Assembly (NCBI GenBank): GCA_030710605.1
Contig: CP092886.1
Coordinates: 160,130,000 to 160,193,999, forward strand
DNA: 64,000 nucleotides
Origin: Cordylochernes scorpioides
Taxonomy: Eukaryota > Arthropoda > Arachnida > Pseudoscorpiones > Chernetidae
Reading direction: 5' to 3'
Positions 2,233 to 63,006 of the stretch are shown here, one piece after another. The position numbers were made by a program, and so were the translations under genes. Position 1 is the stretch's first letter. Each line of letters begins with the position of its first letter. Under the pieces are notes generated by a model. That model worked only from the letters and a program-made list of their open reading frames with translations. It searched no databases and was not told where the DNA came from.

Positions 2233-2466
2233 CTATGTAAGCAATAGTTACCCAGAAATTATTTGAAAAAGGAAAAATAAAAGTCAGGTAAATAGTTTCT
2301 ATTAATTTTGAATTTGCAAGCTTTCGAGTAAATATAGAGTATTAGCCCGTTGAAGAGCAGTATATTTATTTGCCTTAGAAGCTTGCAGAGATAAGAAAGA
2401 AGAAGAAGCTTGCAAATTCAAAATTAAAAGAAACTTTTTACATAATTTTTATTTTTCCTTTTTCAA
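2233..2466. mobile_element. Fold-back insertion, PLE-tail type, with 12-bp target duplication
   Basis: Exact 12-bp direct repeats ATAACAGCCTTT lie at 2221-2232 and 2467-2478. Between them are inverted arms (about 2258-2325 and 2404-2466) reading outward from AAGCTTGCAAATTCAAAATT through AAGAAAC to a ...ATTTTTCC tail. This layout of GAAAGCTTG followed by an A-rich tail with AGAAAC matches the 3' end of the Penelope-like element at 41.2 kb. Both arms have this end facing outward, so the unit looks like two head-to-head copies. The central loop contains degenerate GTTGAAGAGC hairpin remnants. Confidence 0.65.
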
Positions 2467-4734: not shown

Positions 4735-4925
4735 AATTTGAAGGAAGAAAAAGTTTTTTAAAATTACAAATATTTTCTCACAATGAGTTTCTTTTTATTA
4801 AAAAAACGCTAGCTTTCAAGCGATAATCGCTCTTCAACGAGCTTACTAAAATATCGACTTTATCCTACCAGAAATATTTATAAAAAACAAACGCGCGCAG
4901 CGTGAATATTTATAACTAAAAATTT
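4735..4925 (-). mobile_element. PLE-tail-like element with hammerhead-like hairpin
   Basis: The minus strand reads CGTTGAAGAGCG, ATTA, TCGCTT, GAAAGCTAGC (4809-4842), followed by AATAAAAAGAAACTCATTGT. The pairing AGCG/CGCT and the GAAAGC block parallel the hairpin at the 3' end of the PLE at 41.2 kb. The tail after the hairpin is shared with the element at 37.76-37.97 kb (AAAGAAACTCATTGT). Confidence 0.5.
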
Positions 4926-5340: not shown

Positions 5341-5394
5341 TTATTATCTCGACGTTTCGACAAAAATCTTTTGTCCTCGTCAGGAGGAAATAAA
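5341..5394 (-). ncRNA. Hammerhead-ribozyme-like motif (type I, PLE style)
   Basis: On the minus strand: CTGACGA core (complement of 5377-5383), a helix II of GACAAAA/TTTTGTC, GAAA, then ACGT-C, a self-complementary helix III typical of dimeric hammerheads in Penelope-like elements. Helix I is supported by CTC/GAG next to the core and by TTTATT/AATAAA beyond a small internal loop. One extra G sits between the core and helix II, so catalysis is uncertain. Downstream on the minus strand is an A-rich tail (AATAAAAAAGATTTACTGG), as expected for a retroelement 3' end. No PLE coding region is adjacent. Confidence 0.6.
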
Positions 5395-6715: not shown

Positions 6716-7220
6716 CACTAATGGACAAAATTAAGAAAGTTCCATATTTTAAGCCTTAAAAATTCCTTATTTGCTTATATAACGGCGGATTTCCTATAGA
6801 GATTCCATAGAACAGGTGCTTAGGATGATCTGGGAGGAGAGTATCAGATACCGCCAAGAACCACCCAGGAGCTGACAATGGCTCTTGAACAGGAATGGGC
6901 TTTGATCCCAAATGAACTCCTGAACATCCTTATTTCCAGCATGAGACGACGGTGCCAGTGTTGCTTTGAAGTGAGGGCCGCCCCTAACATTCCATATTAG
7001 TTCCGCTGACACCTGGGATTTCTAAAAGTAAAAATATTTTGGTATCGCCGGTCGTCTGTTGTTTTTCTTTTAAAGGAGAAAGAGGCAATTTATTTCACAC
7101 TTGGGTATCTCGTGCGTCTTCAATAAAGGCCACTATGTATCAAATATCTTTCAGAGTTATTGTCTGAATACCGATATACATGCTAAAAAGTACAACTTCC
7201 TTAAGTTTTGTCCATATGTG
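6716..7220 (+). mobile_element. Tc1-like DNA transposon, internally deleted, 505 bp
   Basis: The left end is CACTAATGGACAAAATTAAG and the right end CTTAAGTTTTGTCCATATGTG; TA flanks both. It is the longest member of a family whose short copies lie at 8.1, 14.0, 21.3, 23.0, 24.0, 24.4, 33.8, 36.8, 38.8, 45.3 and 47.3 kb. It alone keeps about 270 bp of extra interior sequence, which encodes the end of a Tc1-type transposase (6824-7000). The short copies look like deletion derivatives of such an element. Confidence 0.8.
6824..7000 (+). pseudogene. Tc1-type transposase, C-terminal remnant
   Basis: Frame 6860-7000 translates to TTQELTMALEQEW, then ALIPNELLNILISSMRRRCQ, and stops at TAG 6998-7000. 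It has the pattern of the transposase C-terminus of Tc1-like elements: a TLQEL-type helix, an EEW...IP motif, and SMRRRCQ followed by a short tail. Immediately upstream, MIWEESIRYRQEPPR lies in another frame and fits the preceding WD.L..R.R...PPRT part, so there is one frameshift around 6862. The DDE catalytic residues are not present in the window. It is non-functional. The assignment is from family knowledge, not a search. Confidence 0.75.
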
Positions 7221-13551: not shown

Positions 13552-13801
13552 TTAAACGATAAGGAACTCTTAAAAAATTGGTTAAATGAATAAGCATAAA
13601 AATGATAAGAGGAGCTTCTTTTATAAATTTATTGTGCAAGCTTTCGGACTATACGTCCTTCTACAGGCATGGATAGTGGTAAAACTAACTAACCACCAAG
13701 GTTAGTTTTACCACTATCCATGCCTGTAGAAGGACGTATAGTCCGAAAGCTTGCACAATAAATTTATAAAAGAAGCTCCTCTTATCTTTTTTATGCTTAT
13801 T
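13552..13801. mobile_element. Near-perfect palindrome of two PLE-tail copies, 14-bp target duplication
   Basis: Inverted arms of about 100 bp (13588-13689 and 13701-13802) are almost identical over their length and separated by 11 bases (13690-13700). Each arm contains the hammerhead-like hairpin CCTGTAGA, A, GGAC, GTATA, GTCC, GAAAGCTTGC, followed by an AT-rich tail pointing outward. Exact 14-bp direct repeats TATTTTTGATTGAT flank the unit at 13538-13551 and 13802-13815. The lack of divergence between the arms suggests a recent origin or arm-to-arm conversion. Confidence 0.8.
13723..13754 (+). ncRNA. Hammerhead-like hairpin (right arm; mirrored at 13636-13668 on the minus strand)
   Basis: CTGTAGA core variant (canonical CUGANGA with A6 replaced by U), helix II GGAC/GTCC closing a GTATA loop, GAAA, then self-complementary AGCT. 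Helix II differs from the other copies but still pairs. Confidence 0.55.
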
Positions 13802-14008
13802 TATTTTTGATTGATATTGATAATTGGTAAACACAAATGGTTTATGATACAAATCCTTTCCAGTTCATTCAATTTAATTTGCTGTGTGAATGTGTCCGTG
13901 TACGAGAATCGTCATGCACGCATGTGTGCGTAACTGGCTGCTGCACACATGTGAGAATTTGGCTCATGTAATTATATGTCCCGATCTGATATTTTATTAT
14001 GTAATATA

Positions 14009-22056: not shown

Positions 22057-22366
22057 TCTGATATCAGAATATAAAACGTTTATGGAGATAAGTATCTTTA
22101 TTTTGATCTTCTCAAGCTTTCGGGCTTGTCTGCCCTTCTACAGGAGAAACAATATATAAAGAAAATATAACGCCGCCTGATCCTAAAACTATTATTACTA
22201 AAATTAAATTATTATTAAAACTAATAATAGTTTTAGCATCAGGCGGCGTTATATTTTCTTTATATATTGTTTCTCCTGTAGAAGGGCAGACAAGCCCGAA
22301 AGCTTGAGAAGATCAAAATAAAGATACTTATCTCCTAAACGTTTTATATTCTGATATCAGAATATA
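22057..22366. mobile_element. Long palindrome of two PLE-tail copies
   Basis: Arms of about 145 bp (22057-22203 and 22217-22361) are almost identical in inverted orientation. Each carries the hairpin CCTGTAGA, A, GGG, CAGACAAG, CCC, GAAAGCTTGAG and a tail ATAAAGATACTTATCTCC facing outward. A 17-bp direct repeat TCTGATATCAGAATATA occurs at 22057-22073 and 22350-22366. Because that sequence is itself largely palindromic, it can be read as target duplication or as arm end. The architecture matches the 13.6-kb palindrome. Confidence 0.75.
22275..22307 (+). ncRNA. Hammerhead-like hairpin (right arm; mirrored at 22112-22143 on the minus strand)
   Basis: CTGTAGA core variant, helix II GGG/CCC around CAGACAAG, GAAA and self-complementary AGCT. 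Same layout as 13.7 and 41.2 kb with a different helix II. Confidence 0.55.
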
Positions 22367-28284: not shown

Positions 28285-28425
28285 TATTATAAACGCGTAT
28301 GGTTCTTTTAAAAATTAAACCATTTTCTACTGCCCTTACTCTAATTTATTATGCTCATTAATTTTCATTACAATAAGGGCAGTAGAAAATTGTTTAATTT
28401 TTAAAAGAATCATACCCGTCTATAA
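28285..28425. mobile_element. Fold-back (MITE-like) element, family B relative
   Basis: Arms 28293-28340 and 28371-28419 pair almost perfectly (AAGGGCAGTAGAAAATTGTT, TAATTTTTAAAAGAA). The motif GGGCAGTAGA followed by AAAAGAA and CGTC parallels the 27.4-kb family. The arms are separated by about 30 AT-rich bases. Confidence 0.6.
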
Positions 28426-29031
28426 TACATGATATGTATATGGTATACATGATATGTGTGTACTATAATACAGTACATGATATGTGTCTAATATAAACAA
28501 CAACAACAAATATTTTAATTGATATTGTTATTAAATGATATTCATAACTAGCGAATCAAATTGTAAAAACCGCTTCATCTCCCCGCAGGCTATGACCGGG
28601 GTGAATAGGACCTTAATGATCACGCTCTTCCCTTTTCTGCGTGTTTTGAGCCAACCGCTAATTTTAGCGACATACATTTTTATGTCTCTTTTTGGTAGGG
28701 AGTTTATTGGCGCTCATTTATCCCTTTGCATTACTTCCTGGTTCATTCAACCCATTTTTGGAGAAAATTTTTCATTTGGAAAAACACTTGATGAGTCATT
28801 TAGCCGTTGACCAAAGAGCTGCGGTTGTTTATTTCCTCAGTGTACTCACATGGCTCAATACGTTTCTCTCATATTGAGTCGTGTCTTGTTTCAATATATG
28901 CTTTTTTTATTCCTTTTTAGATATTTTATATAATATATGACTATATATTTCTATGTGAATATTTAGCAATTGATATCGCGAAGTGTTTGTTTCGTATTTT
29001 CAGTGATTATAGAAATATATTGTCAACAATT
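28426..29031. other. No gene recognised
   Basis: A 91-codon frame at 28535-28810 follows an acceptor-like ATCTCCCCGCAG but contains no domain I recognise. Microsatellite-like GATATGTGT repeats occur at 28430-28490. Confidence 0.35.
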
Positions 29032-36774: not shown

Positions 36775-36987
36775 CACTCATGGAAAAAACTTAAGGAGTT
36801 TTGTATTTTGATGTCGATGGTCATCTATTTTCTTTTTAAGGAGACAGAGTCAATTGTGTTCACACTTGATTATCTCGTATGTTTTCATTAAACCACACTG
36901 TGTATCAGATATCTTTCAGAGTTATTGTCAGAATCCCGATATACATGATGAAATGTAAAACTTCCTTAAGTTTCGTCTATAAGAGTT
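36775..36987 (+). mobile_element. Tc1-type MITE
   Basis: Left CACTCATGGAAAAAACTTAA; right ACTTCCTTAAGTTTCGTCTA; interior segments shared with the family. Confidence 0.75.
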
Positions 36988-37476: not shown

Positions 37477-37578
37477 TTGAAATTGTATCTATTATTCCTG
37501 TAGAAGGGCAGCTTGCGTCCGAAAGCTCGAATGATTTTTCAAATAAAGAAACTTATCCTTTTTGAATCTATTCGTTAT
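37477..37578 (+). mobile_element. 102-bp mini-element with hammerhead-like hairpin and 14-bp target duplication
   Basis: Exact direct repeats TAGAAAGTAAACAC flank the insertion (37463-37476 and 37579-37592). The insert contains CCTGTAGA, A, GGG, CAGCTTGCG, TCC, GAAAGCTCGA (37497-37530) and a tail CAAATAAAGAAACTTATCC. This is the shortest complete unit of the PLE-tail family here. It shows that the hairpin plus its 3' tail can insert as a unit. Confidence 0.75.
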
Positions 37579-37760: not shown

Positions 37761-37972
37761 AAACTACAAAAGAATTTCTCACAATGAGTTACTTTTTATT
37801 TAAAATGCTAGCTTTCAAGCATTCATGCATCGCTCTTCAATGGGCTTAATTAAAACACCAACTATTTCTTACAAGAAATATTTACAAATATACACTGGCA
37901 GTGTGGCTATTTATAAATGAACTCTTAAAATAAAAAGAAACTCATTGTAAGAAATATTTGGTAGTTTTTAAA
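37761..37972. mobile_element. Fold-back PLE-tail element
   Basis: Arms 37761-37805 and 37923-37971 are inverted copies (AAAAACTACAAAAGAATTTC, CACAATGAG and complement). On the minus strand 37806-37845 reads CATTGAAGAGCG, ATGCATGA, ATGCTTGAAAGCTAGC, related to the 4.8-kb element in both hairpin and tail. Confidence 0.6.
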
Positions 37973-39484: not shown

Positions 39485-40306
39485 CGTTACCCGGGCACTT
39501 CAATTATAACAACTGAAGAACTCCAAGGTTTTCTTTCGAATCTGCATGGCCAGGCCTACATCTACGGCCTCCCTAAGGTACACAAGATAAATATCCCCCT
39601 TAGACCAATAGTAGCTTTTCACCTCTTCCCCACAGCCCCGCTAGCCCAGTACTTAGCTAAGATAATCATACCCATACTTAAAGAGGGCGCTGCCTCGACG
39701 TCCATCTCTTCCACACCTATATTCTTGGACCATATACAGCAATTACCGGTTGTCCCCAACAGTCTCATGAACTCTTTCGATGTGATCAATCTATACCCCA
39801 GTCTCCCCCACTCCCTCATTTTAGAAAGCACCACAGAATTCCTCCGGACGCACGGGTATACAGCAGATATGATATCTAAGTTAACCACCTTAATATCGAT
39901 CTGTCTAAGCAATAGTATTTTCAATTTTGATAAACATTATTACAGGCAATCCAAGGGCACTCCCATGGGTAGCCCTTTGTCCTCACCACTCTCTGAAATA
40001 GTTATGCGAAAAGTAGATAGTTTAATTACAGGTCATTTCCCAGCAGATATTCATACTTGGTTTAGATACATAGACGATATTTTCTGTATAGTTAAAACAG
40101 AATCCTTGGACAGTATTCATACCAAATTAAATTCACTATTTCCGGACATCCAATTCACAGTAGAAAAAGAAAACAATTGTTCCTTAGCTTTCTTAGATAT
40201 CATGATTAGAAAACAGAATTGCAGGTATTCCACCAACGTATACTATAAGCCCTCCTTTCATCCTTCCTATATACACTATTCCTCATACTGCCCCCCTCAG
40301 CCATAA
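39485..40306 (+). pseudogene. PLE reverse transcriptase domain (truncated, frameshifted)
   Basis: An open frame of 273 codons begins after a TGA at 39482-39484. An early block YIYGLPKVHK (residues 25-34), then PLRPIVA, is the conserved start of PLE reverse transcriptases. Motif A is SFDVINLYPSLP with Asp near residue 99. Motif B is GTPMGSPLS (158-166). Motif C is RYIDDIF with the catalytic Asp pair near 197-198. Motif D/E sequence NCSLAFLDIMI follows. Catalytic aspartates are intact. The frame ends early in PPQP-stop: after the run of six C at 40291-40296 the homologous continuation lies in another frame. There is no start codon of its own; it is the middle of a longer ancestral ORF. Confidence 0.85.
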
Positions 40307-40307
40307 A

Positions 40308-40955
40308 ATTAATACTATCAAAACCCTCTCGAAACGTATTTTTACTCACTGCTCAACGTCTGAATTTAAACAAACAGAGACCCAAAATGTGGTTAATCAC
40401 CTAATGAACTCAGGTTACCCCAAAAACTTCATCCTCCGACACTTTCACAATCCTCAACAGCAGCTAAACAGTCAGACTTATAGATCGACTTGCAACATTC
40501 CATATTCTACCCATAGTATCAACATCTCTAGACACTTAAAAAACAAGTACGGAATCCGCACCTATTATACCAACACTCCCAAATTAGAAACAATAGTTAG
40601 AAACCCCATCACCAGAAATAGTTTTCCCATTACCCTGCCATATCTTACAAACTCCGTGTATTCCTTAAAATGCTCAGATTGCAACAGTTTGTATATAGGA
40701 GAGACAGGCCGAAGAATTAAGGATAGGATAGACGAACACCACAGAAACATCAGAAACAGTGAACCCAGATCTCTCATAGTGCAACACATTAGACAGACAG
40801 GACATTCTTTCGATACCTCTCACCCACAGGCATATTACTCAGGAATCAAGAGCAAATACAAAAGATTGGTCGTCGAGGCATTACTCTCTTTAAGACATAA
40901 TAGTATTAATAGACACATAGATATCCCTGATATATATAAAGCAATATTGCCATAG
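40308..40955 (+). pseudogene. PLE C-terminal region with GIY-YIG endonuclease
   Basis: Continuation of the PLE protein after the frameshift. It opens with INTIKTLSKRIFTHCS and NHLMNSGYPKNFI, the linker usually found after the RT thumb. The endonuclease follows: SVYSLKCSDCNSLYIGETGR. The VYS and YIG blocks correspond to GIY and YIG, with a CxxC pair between them as in PLE endonucleases. DRIDEHHRN and a conserved Glu in RLVVEALL follow. The frame ends at TAG 40953-40955. In active elements this domain nicks the target for target-primed reverse transcription. The domain itself looks intact. Confidence 0.85.
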
Positions 40956-41203
40956 TGTACCTTAGGGGACCATTGCAAGTACGTTTTATTTTGGATTGTT
41001 TTACTCATGCAGCCTTAAATTGAATCGTGTCTTAATCGTGAAGCTTCTTTTGAATTTCTTCTTGGCATGCTCAGGGCACGCGGATATTTCTTACTATTGT
41101 TTTTCTCACTGGTTTGCTAACATGTTTATTTTTCTTGTAAATATGATAATTTTTCTCAAAATGGATATGAATATATGATGCAAGATTCTCTTCAGATATG
41201 ATG

Positions 41204-41237
41204 TCCTGTAGAAGGGTTATTGACCCGAAAGCTTGGC
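41204..41237 (+). ncRNA. Hammerhead-like hairpin at the PLE 3' end
   Basis: CCTGTAGA, A, GGG, TTATTGA, CCC, GAAAGCTTGG. It lies about 250 bases after the endonuclease stop. It ties the hairpin family at 4.8, 13.6, 22.1, 37.5, 37.8 and 51.3 kb to a Penelope-like element. The core differs from the canonical CUGANGA by U at the A6 position, and an extra A precedes helix II, so self-cleavage is doubtful although the structure is maintained. Confidence 0.6.
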
Positions 41238-41280
41238 TTTATTAAAACTTATAAGAAACGCATCCTCGTTCGCTTTAAAT

Positions 41281-43985
41281 CTATCACTTATATTCTTTAG
41301 AGGGGGGATTTCAACCTTCTTTAAAAGGGACCTAGTACGCTTAATATCTAATAATGAACACAGACTTCAAAGAAAATCGACCTTCCTTGATAAATAACTT
41401 AAAATTCATTTCTATACCTAGAAATAAAATTACGAACAACATGTGTCAACTTTAAAATTTATATATTTTTGCCTTCTGCACCTTCTCGCAAGGGGATCTT
41501 GGGCGCAATTTAGAATTTAAGATTTAAAATGGCTGCTTCATAAATCCTTCTTCATTTCCTACGCTCCATTCTGGACTAAATGCTGGAAAATATAAATGCT
41601 CTTGATTTACAAAACACGTTCATCCTTGACTATAGAATTTAATAAAATCAACTACAATACAGGGCTGTCTCTTTTATTATTTTTATTTCTCTAGCTTCGG
41701 TTTAACATGCTCCTTAACAGGAGAAATATAAATATGACTTCCCGATAACTAACTTTACACGGTTGTATGGTTCGCTGGAAGTCATACATCTAGTTCTCTT
41801 GTTGAAGTTAGCCCAATAATATTCCATTATTAATTTTCAACTCTAAACCTATTGATAAAAATCGATATAATTTCATTGTTTACAGTCTATATATAGAACC
41901 TATCCGGACGTCACGCAGCAATATCGCATTGTTATGTTAATTCACAATACCTGCCGGGAACAATTACCCGATTATTAATTGTTATCCAAATTTTAACACT
42001 ATTCATCACAACACACACACATTTAAATGCTATAAAAACTCCTAATATACCCTTGTACAATCGGAGCGTATTGTTCAAACAATTTCAGCAAGGTATTAGC
42101 CGTAATATTGAGATCCCTTTCGTTCTCTCTTTCTCTCCCTAAAATTAAGTTTTTTTACTTTGCAAATTAATCGCTGGCTTATTTATGCACTTAATAATTG
42201 CTCCTCACCGTCACCTTTTATAGCTCCCCAATTAGGATTCTGGGAATTTATAGCGCTATATACCCCTGCCTTGGAAATCAACACCATAAAGGTTAATTAA
42301 ACTCTCTCTCTCTCGAGGTATTAAATGTTTAACTCTCTCGTTTGCCGTTAATTAATTAATTAGGGGAGAGTCGAGGGTAGAATAGAACTTTCTTGCCAAG
42401 TGACACCAATTATTGGTTCTAGAAAATTAACCATTCATTGGTAAATAATCAGTATTTCATTTTCACACTAATAGTTTAGTGAATCATTTAGTGAATAGTA
42501 ATTGATATTTATAATTGTATTATGATAATTTATGATGAACCCCGATATCTATAATTATTTTGATAAATTCACATTTTTAGAGAGTGAGAGAGAGTCTGAG
42601 ATTACATTAATTAAATTTGAGAAAATCATATCAATATTTTATGTTTTCAATTATTAATTTCGGCACACCTACTGTCGCCATTTTTAAGGTGAATGATGTT
42701 TTAATGTTTATGTGAGTTACATATTTAAAGATATTAAACCAAAAGTATATTTTGTGTTCACACATATCTATAAAATATTTTTAAAGATTCTGTGTGATGT
42801 TATTTGTTTATTTTTTATTTATATAATTCACTAATCAACAGAATTTCGATGGCACTAACAGATGCTAAGTGTAGGATTATTTTTATTGGTCTGATATGAA
42901 GGTGTCAAAACTACCGCCCCAAATTCTTCCTTTCTATCACCCCGATGTTGCACTGTTTCCAATAATGTTTCTTGGAATAATGGGATATATATGTTATTAT
43001 TGGAACACGTTCATATTGGGCATGTGGGAGCAACATTTTCTATTTTTCAGCAATAATTTCGAATCATCCAAAGCTTCATTTTTGTCTTATGATTTCCGTC
43101 CAATAGAGGCTGTTAGGAAATGGCGATCCTTGCTTTTATCCTACATACGAAAAATAAGAAATTGTAAAGAACGTAATATTATCAAAAGAAAATTCAGAAA
43201 TATGTTTCCTATTTATTTCGAAATATTCTGAGGAAAAACTAGAATATTGTTACGCACTTAAAGAAAAGTTATCTGAGGAGTGAACAAAATTTTCATTCTT
43301 CTTAATGTTCTTCACATTTTTTTGTCAAATGACTTTGTTGGAAAGAAGGAGAAAGATTATTCGCTGGAGACTTCCTCAGAATTTGTCTTCTTTGATCTTC
43401 TCACAACTCTCTCTTATTTATCTTTCCATATTTAATGTTGGGGAAACTTTGAGAAAACTGGCAAAGTTTTTTTTTACACTTTTTTCCAAATTGTAACAAA
43501 TAATACAATTGAAATACCTTCCAATGTGCTGGATGCCATATGCATTCAATGTTTACTCTTTCAGATATATGCGATGTAACAATCCATCTATGGTGTCAAA
43601 TATCTAAAGAATTTTGTATAAATGATTCGTTAGCACTATATCAGGAAACTCTAGAATCCAGACCATTTTGATCGAAAAACGAGTTAGGTTTCGCCAAAGT
43701 TCATTTAAATATAACATTACATATACTACTCTTTAAAATTGCCTTTATTTTAACATGGAAATTAATAGGATCAAAATAGCAGAGATAAAATAGATAGAAT
43801 GTATGATGGAAGTATACTAGATGGTGGGCTTCTATTTTATTCATATGGGATAGTCGCCTATGGATATAAAACCTTTATTAGTATTATTTTGTCTTACTTC
43901 GAAACATTCGAATTATTTGTAAATTATATTGATGGGGCGAGGAATAAAGAGTAGATTTCATCAGGAGAGTGATCAGACGATAATA
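41281..43985. other. 2.7 kb without a recognisable gene
   Basis: AT-rich. A 111-codon frame at 42896-43231 (starting MKVSKLPPQILPF) has no domain I recognise. Short (CA)n and (TC)n runs occur near 42005-42020 and 42300. Confidence 0.4.
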
Positions 43986-45267: not shown

Positions 45268-45465
45268 AATGGGAAACACTTAAGCCTTGTTTCAATTTTG
45301 AAGTCTATTTTTTTTTCAAGAAGACAGAGACAAATTTGTTCACACTTGTTTATCTCGTGTCTCTTCAATAAACGTAACTATATCTCAAATATGTCTTTCA
45401 AAGTTATTGTCTGAAATCGGATATACATGCTAAAATATGCAACCTCCTTAAGTTTTGTCTATGAG
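45268..45465 (+). mobile_element. Tc1-type MITE, left end decayed
   Basis: Shared interior CACACTTGTTTATCTCGTGT, TTATTGTCTGAAATCGG and right end CTCCTTAAGTTTTGTCTATG. Confidence 0.7.
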
Positions 45466-46630
45466 TATATATTTTAATACATCTTGTAATTCTACAGATG
45501 CTGAATTGGAGTAGAGATTTTTAAATTGTATATTTTAAATTGTTTTCTCTCTTTCTATACAAAAATACGCAAAAGAAACGTGTTCTAAACAGTCCGCCAT
45601 GTTTGCTAATCTATTCCAGTTTTTATCAGAAGCTAAAATAGAAAAGAAGATGATAAAGTACTAGGAATTTAATTGGAAACAGCTCCTACAGTCAACAGAG
45701 CATTATTTGGGTTCACAGAAACCAATCGACTCTCACCTTTAATTGCTAACAAATTAATTTTGGAACAATTCAAAATTAAAAGGTTTTTTTCCGCGAAGAG
45801 AATTTCTAAATTGAATCTAAAACTATGCACAAGAGTAAATGATTTGAAACTAAAAAATAAAGCCCTTTTAGCTAGAAAAATAATATATAATTTCCTCATT
45901 TGAGTATAAACTTGAATTAGCCAGAACCTTGTATTCCGAAATGTAAAAATGGCGTATAAATTTTCAATAAATATAATATTTTAAATGTAGTTTTATTGGG
46001 CTATAGAGGACACACATCAATAGAGTACATTTCACTACTGAAATATACGTAAAGAATATCCAGGGAAGGATTATTGAGTGAATTTGGAATATTTGACGGT
46101 CATAAGCTCTATTTTGTTTTTTATAATATATGCAATAAAAGGTAGTAGTTATTTCAATATATATTTTTATTGTTTTTTTCTGATTCTTCATTTAGGTCTG
46201 ATGAATATTGGGAAGTTCATGTGAAAAATTCGTTTAAGTTTTGAACATTAAATGTCTTCAAACGTTATTTCTCTACTTGATGATATTGTGAAGGCCGAGG
46301 TGACATTTCGATCCGGCCAGGCAATATCCATTTTCTACACAATTTATGAATACTTTTATTAGAAGCAATTATTTCACGCGCAGTTCGCTAAATTAGTTTC
46401 CAGAAGCTTTGAGGATGGAAATTTGGAAATTCGATTGATGACAATAAGGGAAGAGCAAGAAGTCAGACATTACTTGGGATATCTACTGAACTCTGAAATA
46501 TGGGTCGTAGGAATTGGAAGAAGTCAAAATTTGAGCGTCCGTGCAAGACGTATTTATGACCGTCACGAGAGGTACATTAAAAGTTTACACATGTTACATG
46601 GCAATATTATGAATAATTAGCGAACATCCG
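45466..46630. other. No gene recognised
   Basis: AT-rich; opposing 76-codon frames at 45669-45903 have no known motif. A slightly balanced 65-codon frame at 46423-46620 is also unassigned. Confidence 0.4.
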
Positions 46631-46633
46631 AAC

Positions 46634-46692
46634 AGCTAACTACGTACGCGTTTCGGGCTGTTGGCCCTCATCAGCGTGGTGCAAGTTGTACT
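46634..46692 (-). ncRNA. Hammerhead ribozyme motif, canonical core
   Basis: The minus strand reads ACG, CTGATGA, GGGC, CAACA, GCCC, GAA, ACGCGT, A, CGT. All conserved core positions of a type I hammerhead are present: CUGANGA, GAAA, and an NUH site (GUA) for cleavage. Helix II is a perfect GGGC/GCCC. Helix III would be the self-complementary ACGCGT, which favours a dimeric fold, as described for PLE hammerheads. ACG/CGT closes helix I and AACT/AGTT can extend it after a loop. No PLE coding sequence is adjacent. A decayed relative lies at 48791-48840. Confidence 0.75.
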
Positions 46693-47292: not shown

Positions 47293-47497
47293 CACTCATG
47301 GGCCAAACTTAAATAAGTGGAAAGTCTTTATTGTCGTCGGTCGCCTATTTTTTTAAGGGAACAGAAGCAATTTGTTCATACTTGGTTATGTCGTGTGTCT
47401 TCAATAAAGGTCACTGTAATATCTTTCAGAGTTATTGTCTGATTCCCGAAATACATGGTAAAAGGTACAAATTTCTTAAGTACTGTCCATGAGGGTG
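47293..47497 (+). mobile_element. Tc1-type MITE
   Basis: TA-flanked on the left. CACTCATGGGCCAAACTTAA at the left and TTCTTAAGTACTGTCCATGAG at the right, with the full shared interior. Confidence 0.8.
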
Positions 47498-51326: not shown

Positions 51327-51359
51327 TGAAAGCTTTCGAGCAAATTTGCTCTTCTACGG
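51327..51359 (-). ncRNA. Hammerhead-like hairpin of the PLE-tail family
   Basis: The minus strand reads TCCGTAGA, A, GAGCAAA, TTTGCTC, GAAAGCTTTC, then an AATAAATAAAAGAAATTC tail. Helix II (GAGCAAA/TTTGCTC) is long and perfect and differs in sequence from the other copies. Confidence 0.5.
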
Positions 51360-54500: not shown

Positions 54501-54570
54501 AAATATGTGTTATAAACTTGATGAGCTTCTCGCTCTGTTCCCTTTACATTGAAAATTGAGTATCAACAAA

Positions 54571-57500
54571 TTGGCTTCAATAACCTAATGTTTGGATATA
54601 AAATGGCTTCCATAATACAATATTTGGACTTCAAATGGCTTCCATAATACAATATTTGGACATCAAATGACTTCCATATAACAATATTTGGACATTAAAT
54701 GACTTCCATAATACAATATTTGTACTACATATAGCTTCCATAATACAATATTTGGACTTCAAATGGCTTCCATAATACAATATTTAGACATCAAATGACT
54801 TCCATGTAACAATATTTGGACATTAAATAGCTTCCATAATACGATTTTGGAAATCAAATGACTTCCAAAATACAATATTTGGACATCAAAAAGCTTTCAT
54901 AATACAAAATTTGGACATCAATTGGCTTTCATAATACAATATTTGGACATATTTTGAATTTCATAATACAATATTTGGACAAAAAAAGGCTTCCATAATA
55001 CAAGGTTTGGATATTAAATGACTTCCATAATCAAATGTTTAAACCTCAAATGACTTTCATAATACAATATTTGGACATCGAAAGGCTTCCATAATACAAT
55101 ATTTGGAAATAAAATAACTTCCATATTACAATATTTAGAAAAGGAATGACTTTCATTATACAATATTTGGGCAAATAATCGCTTCCATAATACAATTTTT
55201 AGACATCAAAACCTTCCATAATACAATATTTGTACATCAAATGACTTCCATAATATAATATTTGGAGATCAAATAACTTTCATAATACAATGTTTGGACA
55301 TCAAATCACTTCTATATTACAATGTTTGAACATCGAATGGGGTCCATAATACAATATTTGGACATAAAATGGCTTCCATAATATAATATTCGGACATCAA
55401 ATGGCTTCCATATTCAAATTTTGGACATCAAATAGCTTCCATAATACAATATTTGGACATAAAATGACTTCCATAATACAAAATTTGGACATCAAATGGC
55501 TTCAATAATACAATATTAAAATATCAAATGGCTTCCATAATAAAATATTTGGACATATAATGACTTCCAGAATACAATATTTGAAGATCAAATGACTTCC
55601 ATAATACGATTTTGGAGATCAAATGATTTTCATAATACAATGTTTGGACATCAAATGACTTCCACATTACAATGTTTAAGCATCGAATGGCTTCCATAAT
55701 ATAATATTTGGTCCTAAAATGACTACCATAATATAATATATGGAAATAAAATGGCTTCCATAATGCAATATTCGGACATGAAATGGCTACCATATTCAAA
55801 TGTTTGGACATCAAATAGGTTCCATAACACAATATTAGGACATAATTAGACTTCCATGATATAATGTTTGGACATAAAATGACTTCCATGATATAATGTT
55901 TGGACATCAAATAGGTTCCATATTGCAATATTAGGACATAATTATACTTCCATAATACAATGTTTGGACATCAAATGGCTTTCAAAATACAATATTAGTA
56001 CATAAATTTATTTCCATAATACAATATTTGGACTTCAAATGGCTTTCATAATACAATATTTGGACGTAAATTGAATTCCATAGTACAATATTTGTACATC
56101 GAAAGCCTTCCATAATACATTATTTGGAAATAAAATGACTTCCATAATACAATATTTGGAGATCAAATAACTTTAATAATACAATGTTTGGACATTAAAT
56201 GGCTTCCATTATACAATATTTGGACATCAATAGACTTTCACAATACAATATATGGACATAATATGACTTCCATAATGCAATATTAGGACATTAAATTGCT
56301 TCCATAATACAATATTTGGACATCAAATGACATCCATAATACAATATTTGGACATCAACTTGCTTACATAATACAATATTTGGACATCAAAAGGTTTCCA
56401 TAATACAATGTTTGGATATTAAATGACTTTCAGAATCAAATGTTTGGAAAATCAATTGGATTTCATAATCCAATGTTTGGACATCAAATGGCTTCTCTCT
56501 ACTACAATATTAGGACAACAAATGAATTCCATAATACAATATTTGCACATCAAATGATTTCCATATTCTAATGTTTGGACATATGATGACTTCCATAACC
56601 CAATGTTTGGACATTAAATAGCTTCAATAATACAATATTTGAACATCAAAAGACTTCCACAATACAATATTTCTACATAAAATGACTTTCATAATACAAT
56701 ATTCGTACATCATATGGGTTCCATAATACAATATTTGGACATGTATTGACTTCTATTATACAATATTTGAACATAAAACGACTTCCATAATACAATATTT
56801 GGACATCAAATGGCTTCAATAATACAATATTAGGATATCAAATGGCTTCCATAATAAAATATTTGGACATATAATGATTTCCAGAATACAATATTTGAAG
56901 ATCAAATGACTTCCATAATACGATTTTGGAGATCAATTGATTTTCATAATACAATGTTTGGACATCAAATTACTTCCACATTACAATATTTAAGCATCGA
57001 ATGGCTTCCATAATATAATATTTGGACTTAAAATGACTTCCATAATATAATAACCGGATATAATATGGCTTCCATAATGCAATATTCGGACATCAAATGG
57101 CTACCATATTCAAATGTTTGGACATCAAATAGGTTCCATAACACAATATTAGGACATAATTAGACTTCCATGATATAATGTTTGGACATAAAATGACTTC
57201 CATGATATAATGTTTGGACATAAAATGACTTCCATAATACAATGTTTGGACATCAAGTGGCTTTCAAAATACAATATTAGGACATATATCATATATTTAT
57301 TTCCATAATACAATATTTGGACATCAAATGGCTTTCACAATACATTATTTGGACATAAATTGAATTCCATAGTACAAAATTTGGACATCAAATGGCTTTC
57401 ATAATACAATATTTGGACACCAAATGGCTTTCATAATACATTATTTGGACATAAATTGAATTCCATAGTACAATATTTGTACATCCAATGGCTTTCATAA

Positions 57501-58437
57501 TACAATATTTGGACATTAAAGGACTTCCATAATCAAATGTATGAACATCAAATGGCTTTCATAATACAATGTTTGAACATCGAAAGGCTTCCATAATACA
57601 ATATTTGGATATAAAATGACTACCATTATACAATATTTGGACAAATAATGCTTCCATATTACAATATTTGTGCATCAAATGACTTCCATAATACAATATT
57701 TGGAAAACAAATAACTTCCATAATACAATATTTGGACACAAATGACTTCCATAATACAATAGTTGGACATAAAATGACTTCCATTATAAAATATTTAAAC
57801 ATAAAATGGCTTCCATAATACACTATTTGGACATAATTAGACTTCCATAATACAATGTTTGGACATAAGGTAACTTCCATAACCCAAATTTTGGACATTA
57901 AATGGCTTCCATAATACAATATTTAGACATCAAAAGACTTCCATAATACAAAGTGTGAACATCAATTGGCTTGCATAATACAAAAGTTGGACATCAAATG
58001 GCGTCCATAATACAATATTTGGAAATAAAATGACTTCCATAATACAATATTTGGAGATCAAATGACTTTCATAATACAATATTTGGACATCAAATGGCTA
58101 CCTTAATAAAATTTTAGGATATCAAATGACTTCCATAATCTAATGTTCGGGTACCAAATGGATCAAATGGCTTTAATAATATAATATTTTGAAATTTAAT
58201 GGCTTTCAAAATCAAATGTTTGGAAATCAAATGGCTTCCATAATACAATGTTTGGATATCAAAAGGCTTCCATATTACAATAATTGGACTTCAAATGACT
58301 TCCAAAATCAAGTGTTTGGACATCAAATGGTTCTATATCCAATGTTTGGATATGAAATGGCTTCCATAATACAATATTTGGACATCAACTGGGTTCCATA
58401 ATACAATATTTGGACATCAAATGGCTTCCATATCAAT
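54571..58437. repeat. Satellite array, 32-bp unit, about 120 copies
   Basis: The unit reads GGCTTCCATAATACAATATT followed by TGGACATCAAAT. Copies differ at scattered positions, and the array has internal higher-order structure: a block of distinctive variants at about 55501-56090 recurs at 56815-57380. Open frames across it are by-products of the repeat. Confidence 0.95.
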
Positions 58438-61506: not shown

Positions 61507-61880
61507 AGCACCAAGGCCCATTTATTCAGTTTTTTTTTTTTACCTTCGTGAGCACCACTGTAATGACATGTAGTCAGATCCAACCCATTTAAACTGAACC
61601 ACACACAAACTTATTCCTCAGTAACACGCCTTAATTTTAAACACCTTCGTCACTTCGAAAGTCTAAGTATTTCATTCAATCATCAACTTTCATCATCTCA
61701 CACATCACCCCTACCCTGTCATCTATCATCTTGTCCACTGTCTATAGCTGCTACACATACCTAATCGTATCACCTTTCTTTTTTTCTTGCCCTAACTCCA
61801 CACAAGCAACCAGTTTTACCTACACTCATCACCACGGTTGCCACATATGCTTCACATCAACGAGGTGAACACTGCAGCTA
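61507..61880. other. C/T-rich flank of the 62-bp satellite
   Basis: Pyrimidine-rich with many CATCAT/CACATC triplets and no feature; similar composition flanks the array at 63007-63110. Confidence 0.4.
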
Positions 61881-61881
61881 T

Positions 61882-63006
61882 ATTATCACACTAGGGTGCA
61901 CGGACCGATATGATCTGCTCCATGGACAAGACACCACCACCATATTATCACACTAGGGTGCACGGACCGATATGATCTGCTCCATGGACAAGACACCACC
62001 ACCATATTATCACACTAGGGTGCACGGACCGATATGATCTGCTCCATGGACAAGACACCACCACCATATTATCACACTAGGGTGCACGGACCGATATGAT
62101 CTGCTCCATGGACAAGACACCACCACCATATTATCACACTAGGGTGCACGGACCGATATGATCTGCTCCATGGACAAGACACCACCACCATATTATCACA
62201 CTAGGGTGCACGGACCGATATGATCTGCTCCATGGACAAGATACCACCACCATATTATCACACTAGGGTGCACGGACTGATATGATCTGCTCCATGGACA
62301 AGACACCACCATATATTATCACACTAGGGTGCACGGACCGATATGATCTGCTCCATGGACAAGACACCACCACCATATTATCACACTAGGGTGCACGGAC
62401 CGATATGATCTGCTCCATGGACAAGACACCACCACCATATTATCACAGTAGGGTGCACGGACCGATATGATCTGCTCCATGGACAAGACACCACCACCAT
62501 ATTATCACACTAGGGTGCACGGACCGATATGATCTGCTCCATGGACAAGACACCACCACCATATTATCACACTAGGGTGCACGGACCGATATGATCTGCT
62601 CCATGGACAAGACACCACCACCATATTATCACACTAGGGTGCACGGACCGATATGATCTGCTCCATGGACAAGACACCACCACCATATTATCACACTAGG
62701 GTGCACGGACCGATATGATCTGCTCCATGGACAAGACACCATCACCATATTATCACACTAGGGTGCACGGACCGATATGATCTGCTCCATGGACAAGACA
62801 CCACCACCATATTATCACACTAGGGTGCACGGACCGATATGATCTGCTCCATGGACAAGACACCACCACCATATTATCACACTAGGGTGCACGGACCGAT
62901 ATGATCTGCTCCATGGACAAGACACCACCACCATATTATCACACTAGGGTGCACGGACCGATATGATCTGCTCCATGGACAAGACACCATCACCATATTA
63001 TCACAC
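61882..63006. repeat. Satellite array, 62-bp unit, about 18 copies, highly homogeneous
   Basis: The unit contains ATTATCACACTAGGGTGCAC, GGACCGATATGATCTGCTCC and ATGGACAAGACACCACCAC. Variation is limited to a handful of substitutions (near 62242, 62268, 62448, 62741 and 62989) and one short deletion near 62307. It is GC-richer than the flanks. Confidence 0.97.

Follow-up and report, generated by a model that had tools for sequence, protein, structure and literature searches.

The hammerhead-like motifs in this stretch of the Cordylochernes scorpioides genome are, we think, rather likely to be hammerheads of the pseudo-LTRs (pLTRs) of Penelope-like elements (PLEs) that carry a variant core, are kept as an RNA fold and probably cut slowly, as dimers or with the help of a protein. 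They are of an ordinary kind, PLE pLTR hammerheads being known and abundant; what is unusual is the core, and specifically the presence of U rather than A at position 6 (U6 and A6 below). The window, by which is meant the whole stretch of 64,000 nucleotides, lies in contig C24 of the genome searched (2.62 Gb in 24 contigs). An earlier note on this DNA had listed nine hairpins, at 4.8 (minus strand), 13.6 (both arms), 22.1 (both arms), 37.5, 37.8 (minus strand), 41.2 and 51.3 kb (minus strand), and all nine were located. Two further sites on the minus strand, at 5.4 kb (CUGACGA) and at 46.7 kb (CUGAUGA, without the extra base that precedes helix II elsewhere), are both A6 and bring the total to 11 (Table 1).

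Table 1. Hammerhead-like motifs and parts of the associated Penelope-like element in the window
Feature	Position	Strand	Details
Hammerhead-like core, 41.2 kb	41206..41233	+	CTGTAGA, extra A, GAAAGCT; C3 = 41206; extra A = 41213; helix II GGGTT-ATT-GACCC; GAAAGCT ends at 41233
Helix I, 41.2 kb	41203-41205 paired with 41235-41237	+	
Position 17, 41.2 kb	41234	+	predicted cut 41234/41235
PLE copy end behind predicted cut	41235..41326	+	
PLE ORF piece, reverse transcriptase	39485..40306	+	RVT_1, E 1.8e-9
PLE ORF piece, GIY-YIG endonuclease	40206..40955	+	other frame; E 3.9e-5
Motif pair, 13.6 kb	13724-13751; 13639-13666	+; -	helix II GGAC/GTCC; within head-to-head (foldback) insertion 13584..13806
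Motif pair, 22.1 kb	22276-22304; 22115-22143	+; -	helix II GGGC/GCCC; within head-to-head (foldback) insertion 22057..22361
CTGTAGA motif, 37.5 kb	37498..37527	+	helix II GGGC/GTCC (one G-U); relative in L013 has GGGC/GCCC
CCGTAGA motif, 51.3 kb	51331..51359	-	U4 to C as well; helix II GAGCAAA/TTTGCTC
TCGTTGA motif, 4.8 kb	4811..4840	-	helix II GAGCGA/TCGCTT; repeat family shared with 37.8 kb; PLE-anchored relative L098
CCATTGA motif, 37.8 kb	37804..37849 (model match span)	-	repeat family shared with 4.8 kb
CTGACGA motif, 5.4 kb	5352..5383	-	A6, extra G, helix II GACAAAA/TTTTGTC, GAAACGT
CTGATGA motif, 46.7 kb	46646..46674	-	A6, extra base absent, helix II GGGC/GCCC, GAAACGCGT; core letters as consensus

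The hairpin observation in the window is confirmed as real. A core-only pattern in which pairing is not required (CTGNNGA, 9-32 nt, then GAAA followed by GCT or CGT) gave seven matches in the window, with helix II 4 bp long or longer in every one of them; 60 dinucleotide shuffles gave eight matches in total (mean 0.13), two of them with such a helix. A looser scan, the stem rule of which excludes the 37.5 and 37.8 kb sites, returned 11 rows, made up of nine real sites and two rows near +51300 (one spurious stem), and in ten shuffles it returned 0, 1, 0, 2, 0, 1, 0, 0, 0 and 0. With a covariance model built partly from these same sites, ten sites were recovered in the window at E<0.01 and that at 46.7 kb was missed. 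In an Rfam scan of the window the hammerhead families all fell below their own thresholds, with none at E<=5 either, and the single-strand folds of eight motifs were only modestly better than those of shuffles (z from -2.7 to +0.2; -1.4 for 41.2 kb). When the covariance model was applied to 80 kb at positions fixed beforehand, five sites were found at E<0.01, two of which (L031 and L033) are rows of the model itself; the density of motifs is, very roughly, one per 16 kb, which would put the genome total on the order of 10^5. The distinct sites matching the core-only pattern number 53 (110 copies in 109 sources), and a helix II of at least 3 bp is present in 43 of them and lacking in ten.

These motifs are more than hairpins: they are predicted to fold as three-way hammerheads in which the strand of helix III is self-complementary. 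The hammerhead-like fold that had been proposed is supported by covariation in both helix I and helix II: that in helix II, which the earlier note had claimed from the window, is present across 15 sequence families of the genome, and that in helix I was not mentioned in that note. Each family is represented by one hand-chosen sequence, with the relatives L013, L031, L034 and L028 standing in for the window copies at 37.5, 5.4, 46.7 and 4.8 kb; the families are not phylogenetically independent, and relatedness is only partly preserved by the controls, which were shuffles, permutations and slid alignments. Helix I is absent from every selection rule. Adjoining the core, 29 of 30 of its cells are paired in the 15 representatives when 2 bp are considered and 40 of 45 for 3 bp, as compared with 17.9 and 23.6 cells on permutation, and the observed pairing was reached in 0 of 20000 permutations. 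Taking both helices together, 85.0% of cells are paired (64.4% when shuffled) and the covariation measure is 0.661 (0.244 when shuffled, at most 0.146 in slid controls), with none of 500 shuffles as high in either respect. Two weaker measures are the both-sided changes, seen in seven of eight helix I and helix II pairs (shuffled 4.8; 9 of 500 as high), and the number of pair types, which is 18 (shuffled 15.0; 45 of 500 as high). Helix II lies next to the core, preceded by a single extra base in 42 of the 43 distinct sites, and helix I also lies next to the core at the level of families, more weakly so inside the 41.2 kb lineage, where its pair 2 is often U opposite C. Pairs 1, 2 and 3 of helix I are formed in 40, 29 and 36 of the 43 distinct sites, and a fourth pair is unpaired in 10 of the 15 families. 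The helix III strand consists of self-complementary AGCU or ACGU only (ACGCGU at 46.7 kb), such that the helix would need two copies. The pairing of the motifs looks to have been kept by selection.

Within the core, position 6 is U in 25 and A in 18 of the 43 distinct sites that have helix II, C and G being absent. At position 17, 25 sites have C, 17 have U, one has A and none has G, the absence of G being a requirement for cleavage, and the extra base is A in 36, G in six and missing from one. U6 is found in 11 of the 15 families; G12, A13, A14, A15.1 and U16.1 are constant in all of them and G8 nearly so, with GAAA and the T partly imposed by the search patterns. Among sites ending in GCT or CGT, all 25 U6 sites have GCU, and the A6 sites have CGU in 13 cases and GCU in five. 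A strict link between U6 and GCU is broken once the letters after GAAA are left free, since three single U6 copies then show other endings (L005, L016 and L081); the same count includes one G17, in a chance-like site at L006. The strict core has been defined as C3 U4 G5 A6 N7 G8 A9 G12 A13 A14 A15.1 U16.1 H17, of which A6 is a part (PMC3088659). At 41.2 kb all of these letters other than A6 are present. U6 is found in place of A6 at 13.6, 22.1, 37.5, 41.2, 51.3, 4.8 and 37.8 kb, with departures also at U4 (51.3 kb), at C3 and U4 (4.8 kb) and at U4 and G5 (37.8 kb), and A6 is found only at 5.4 and 46.7 kb. These two A6 sites fit the core letters, one of them carrying the extra base, and in L034, a relative of the 46.7 kb site, helix I has six pairs and every core letter agrees with the consensus. 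The U6 sites are hammerhead-derived and hammerhead-like in fold, and lie outside the strict published definition; they are not filed here as canonical hammerheads because the A6 feature of the strict core fails. Placing the extra base after G5, following a MAFFT gap for the 46.7 kb family, is disfavoured, as G8 would then be lost.

The earlier reading of the core as a consistent derived form, with A6 changed to U and an inserted A, is not supported as stated: the extra base is common to A6 families too and is a known natural variant of moderate activity, and U6 is frequent without being general and switches within the lineage of the 41.2 kb copy. In a midpoint-rooted tree of that lineage, built from 76 distinct end regions (68 U6, 8 A6), A6 occurs at two places, and the changes between A6 and U6 number two on the best tree and across the 5-95% bootstrap range, with one forced by well-supported branches alone. 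A6 members were found in 4 of 20 endonuclease-picked loci as well as in 8 of 76 end regions, and the idea that U6 is fixed in the lineage was dropped. A near-identical group of 39 rows, including the window copy, is all U6, and U6 elements have therefore moved recently; given this amplification, the elements can move without activity of the A6 type. Across 16 hand-chosen sublineages in the tree of the 41.2 kb PLE, 13 of the 15 columns of the core do not vary, as against 69 of 155 flank columns (Fisher P 0.002), and a stretch of the downstream flank is likewise well kept (17 of 24 columns).

That the motif is tied to a PLE, as the earlier note had held, was upheld by 20 of 20 endonuclease-picked PLE 3' ends, all of which carry it. 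In the window the PLE ORF (39485-40955) has its reverse transcriptase and GIY-YIG domains in adjoining frames, broken near 40250, and the 41.2 kb motif starts about 250 nt downstream of its stop. The 20 relatives of this element, hand-picked across the identity range from 150 rows, have the motif 249-262 nt behind the ORF end in 19 cases and about 189 nt behind it in L058, and four of them are A6. At L109 there is one open frame of 815 codons with an RVT_1 match (E 3.4e-10) and a C-terminus that is that of the endonuclease of the window copy; a GIY-YIG domain was not among the matches to this frame at E<=0.001. A Pfam GIY-YIG search, sampled at 40 of 146 rows, gave a clear motif by reading in 22 of 40 loci and a decayed one in L070. 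Among the remaining 17, seven share the C-terminus of the endonuclease with the 5.4 kb family and have no clear motif on that strand, and ten show no match to the C-termini tried and no motif within 921 nt. At least six families are anchored to a PLE, namely 41.2 kb, 5.4 kb (with relatives among L072-L108), 4.8/37.8 kb (via L098), L084/L088, L058 and L017/L024/L080, the last with an endonuclease piece in L024 and L080. A tie to an ORF was not obtained for the 13.6, 22.1, 37.5, 51.3 and 46.7 kb families, and the tie of the 13.6 and 22.1 kb families is by structure only, through head-to-head pairs in the window and elsewhere. A first look over the genome gave 1574 candidates for the end region at 41.2 kb (40 scored, at least 44 matches listed) and 55377 for the endonuclease query (150 scored).

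The copies have the build expected of PLEs, with relatives showing a pLTR on both sides, an inverted arm, a tail at one end and a short target site duplication (TSD); for the window copy, an inverted arm was not found within the window. Arms without a tail end at the equivalent of 41289-41299 and tailed arms at 41320-41326, the optional tail being about 30-35 nt long. In the 41.2 kb family, 22 of 28 loci consist of two 5'-truncated arms placed head to head, their outer ends both visible, and the other six (L001, L007, L009, L011, L013 and L028) are single or cut. All 22 pairs have one tailed and one untailed arm; the loci were picked with a tail-bearing query, by which one tailed arm is given. 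This rule does not come from rarity of the tail, because about half of the ends at the 20 endonuclease-picked loci are tailed (nine tailed, one partly and ten untailed, by alignment and by eye). Direct repeats of about 7-13 nt were seen by eye at the outer ends of at least 6 of 21 pairs (L006, L010, L012, L015, L018 and L024). In the head-to-head copies among L002-L027 each insertion seems to use both start sites once each. Two other foldbacks lie in the window: one at 28285-28427 is AT-rich and has no hammerhead-like motif, and a decayed one at 2259-2470, with a weak model match (2341-2389, plus strand, E 0.046), is perhaps an old head-to-head PLE pair.

In four U6 families one of the two PLE copy ends follows the motif at a distance of about 49-57 nt. 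From predicted cut to untailed end the distance is 55-65 nt, mostly 56-57, in the 41.2 kb family, 49-54 nt in that of 13.6 kb, 56 nt in most rows of that of 22.1 kb and 54 nt in one copy (L033). At L109 the first ATG is about 120 nt behind the predicted cut, and the starts of its two arms are about 20 and 36 nt downstream of that cut. Among the 20 copies that reach the ORF start, out of 43 rows fetched, 18 have another motif upstream (with G5 altered in one of them), so that tandem motifs in one RNA are possible; of the other two, one has its junction inside the motif and the other starts some 20 nt past the cut. None of the 20 begins at the predicted cut, and hence cutting does not set the insertion ends in these copies, which agrees with the insertion result for hammerhead mutants in Anolis given below; the use of insertion 5' ends as markers of the cut site was not borne out.

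Under the explanation preferred here, the motifs would be minimal type I hammerheads of PLE pLTRs with a variant core, and in a transcript running through two pLTRs two motifs could pair via AGCU/AGCU. Cutting would then take place at position 17 of the paired motifs, at a slow rate for the U6 form or assisted by the PLE protein; such cutting may trim or separate tandem transcripts, and the 5' ends of new insertions would not be set by it. Another reading takes the U6 forms to be former ribozymes that no longer cut, with the fold serving as a structural mark, for example in spacing the initiation of reverse transcription or in binding a protein. This is unlikely in our judgement, if worth serious consideration: it accords with the similar cut-to-end spacing in four U6 families of different sequence, with the recent amplification of U6 lineages and with the 20 copies that start elsewhere than at the predicted cut. 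A structural role, however, need not keep G17 out of 43 sites together with a constant G12, A13, A14, A15.1 and U16.1; Anolis templates that begin at +20, with most of the hammerhead missing, still insert (PMC11167929), and in the canonical family of L034 the predicted cut lies 151 nt before the end of symmetry rather than about 50-57 nt. Since the catalytic letters are constant and G17 is absent, predicted slow, dimeric or protein-assisted cutting is favoured over a dead fold as the more likely, not by a wide margin.

Two further readings dispense with a hammerhead under selection. For the motifs at 41.2, 13.6, 22.1 and 37.5 kb the minimum-energy fold places helices I and II in one long stem, with G5-C and U6-G pairs to the helix III letters and a GA-rich internal loop, and such an extended hairpin would also fit the occurrence of GCT with 25 of 25 U6 sites and 5 of 18 A6 sites. 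It is nevertheless very improbable, for compensatory changes are missing from the two pairs that it adds (the first is G-C in 13 of 15 cases, the second U-G in 11 of 14, and all others are unpaired), and it leaves the constant C3 and G5, the near-constant G8 and the absent G17 unexplained. Least probable of all, and in our view hardly credible, is that the repeats come from one ancestral hammerhead with pairing inherited and unselected. Shared descent of the families is possible and the shuffles do not preserve phylogeny, but helix I pair 2 occurs as five pair types across the 15 families (UA 6, GC 5, AU 2, CG 1, UG 1) and helix II pair 3 as three (GC, AU and CG), 31 cells are changed on both sides as against 11.5 when shuffled, and core columns are less variable than flanks.

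The plus hammerhead of the chrysanthemum viroid CChMVd has A6 and a consensus-like helix III. It likewise has an extra A10, between A9 and G10.1, at the cost of a moderate loss of rate, and U10 raises its rate 3-4 fold (PMC3705267). An extra U is found at the same place in the Anolis PLE RNA, CUGAGGA-U-GCC...GGC-GAAAC by reading of the printed sequence (PMC11167929), so that the extra base before helix II is already known as a tolerable hammerhead variant. A natural change at position 6 is likewise known from the hammerhead of phage Bcep176, to C there and to U here; this A6C variant cleaves poorly in Mg2+ (PMC3088659, PMC7151607) and cuts well with Mn2+ (PMC7151607). The literature searched yielded no cleavage data for A6U, and a CUGUAGA hammerhead in one design paper is probably a misprint, the same paper having CUGAUGA elsewhere.

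The minimal type I hammerheads described in PLE pLTRs (Cervera & de la Pena 2014; Lunse, Weinberg & Breaker 2017) share with the present motifs their place in the pLTR, a near-absent helix III, high numbers and a tandem arrangement with possible dimers; as far as citing descriptions of those papers go, the difference here is U6 in most families and U4C in some. Helix III is not properly formed in PLE hammerheads, which possibly work as dimers, and their role has been called unknown (PMC7761336). PAc, a Poseidon PLE of Anolis, is likewise a GIY-YIG PLE with a hammerhead near the pLTR/ORF junction and two copy ends about 30-40 nt apart, its tail lying between two start sites of reverse transcription; it differs in an intact A6, in U as the extra base and in an ORF start inside the hammerhead, whereas the ATG of L109 is about 120 nt behind the cut (PMC11167929). 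In the assay reported there the Anolis hammerhead was cleaved only with the PLE protein, hammerhead mutants left insertion in vitro unchanged, and templates without most of the hammerhead were inserted (PMC11167929). The Penelope elements of Adineta likewise have inverted pLTRs, a short TSD and an optional tail at one inverted end, and the word hammerhead is absent from that paper (PMC3846280).

It is possible, if on balance doubtful, that this is a working natural lineage of non-consensus hammerheads, with U6, mostly G15.2, an additional A10 and cutting that depends on dimers or on protein, highly amplified in one genome and switching between A6 and U6 within one PLE lineage. If true, it would be a natural experiment on a change of hammerhead core compatible with mobility of the element. 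That a single PLE lineage has both an A6 and a U6 form, each multicopy in one genome, offers a test of how important cleavage is for mobility, and the same genome offers one of how far the hammerhead core tolerates U6 combined with A10.

Other repeats in the window include a dispersed one of about 160 nt, SINE-like in size and present on both strands (7035-7216, 36804-36981, 45308-45472, 47333-47490 and others). A large tandem array at 54559-58436 has a unit of about 32 nt like GAAAGCCATTTGATGTCCAAATATTGTATTAT, and another at 61880-63006 has a period of about 62 nt, with copies about 98-99% alike.
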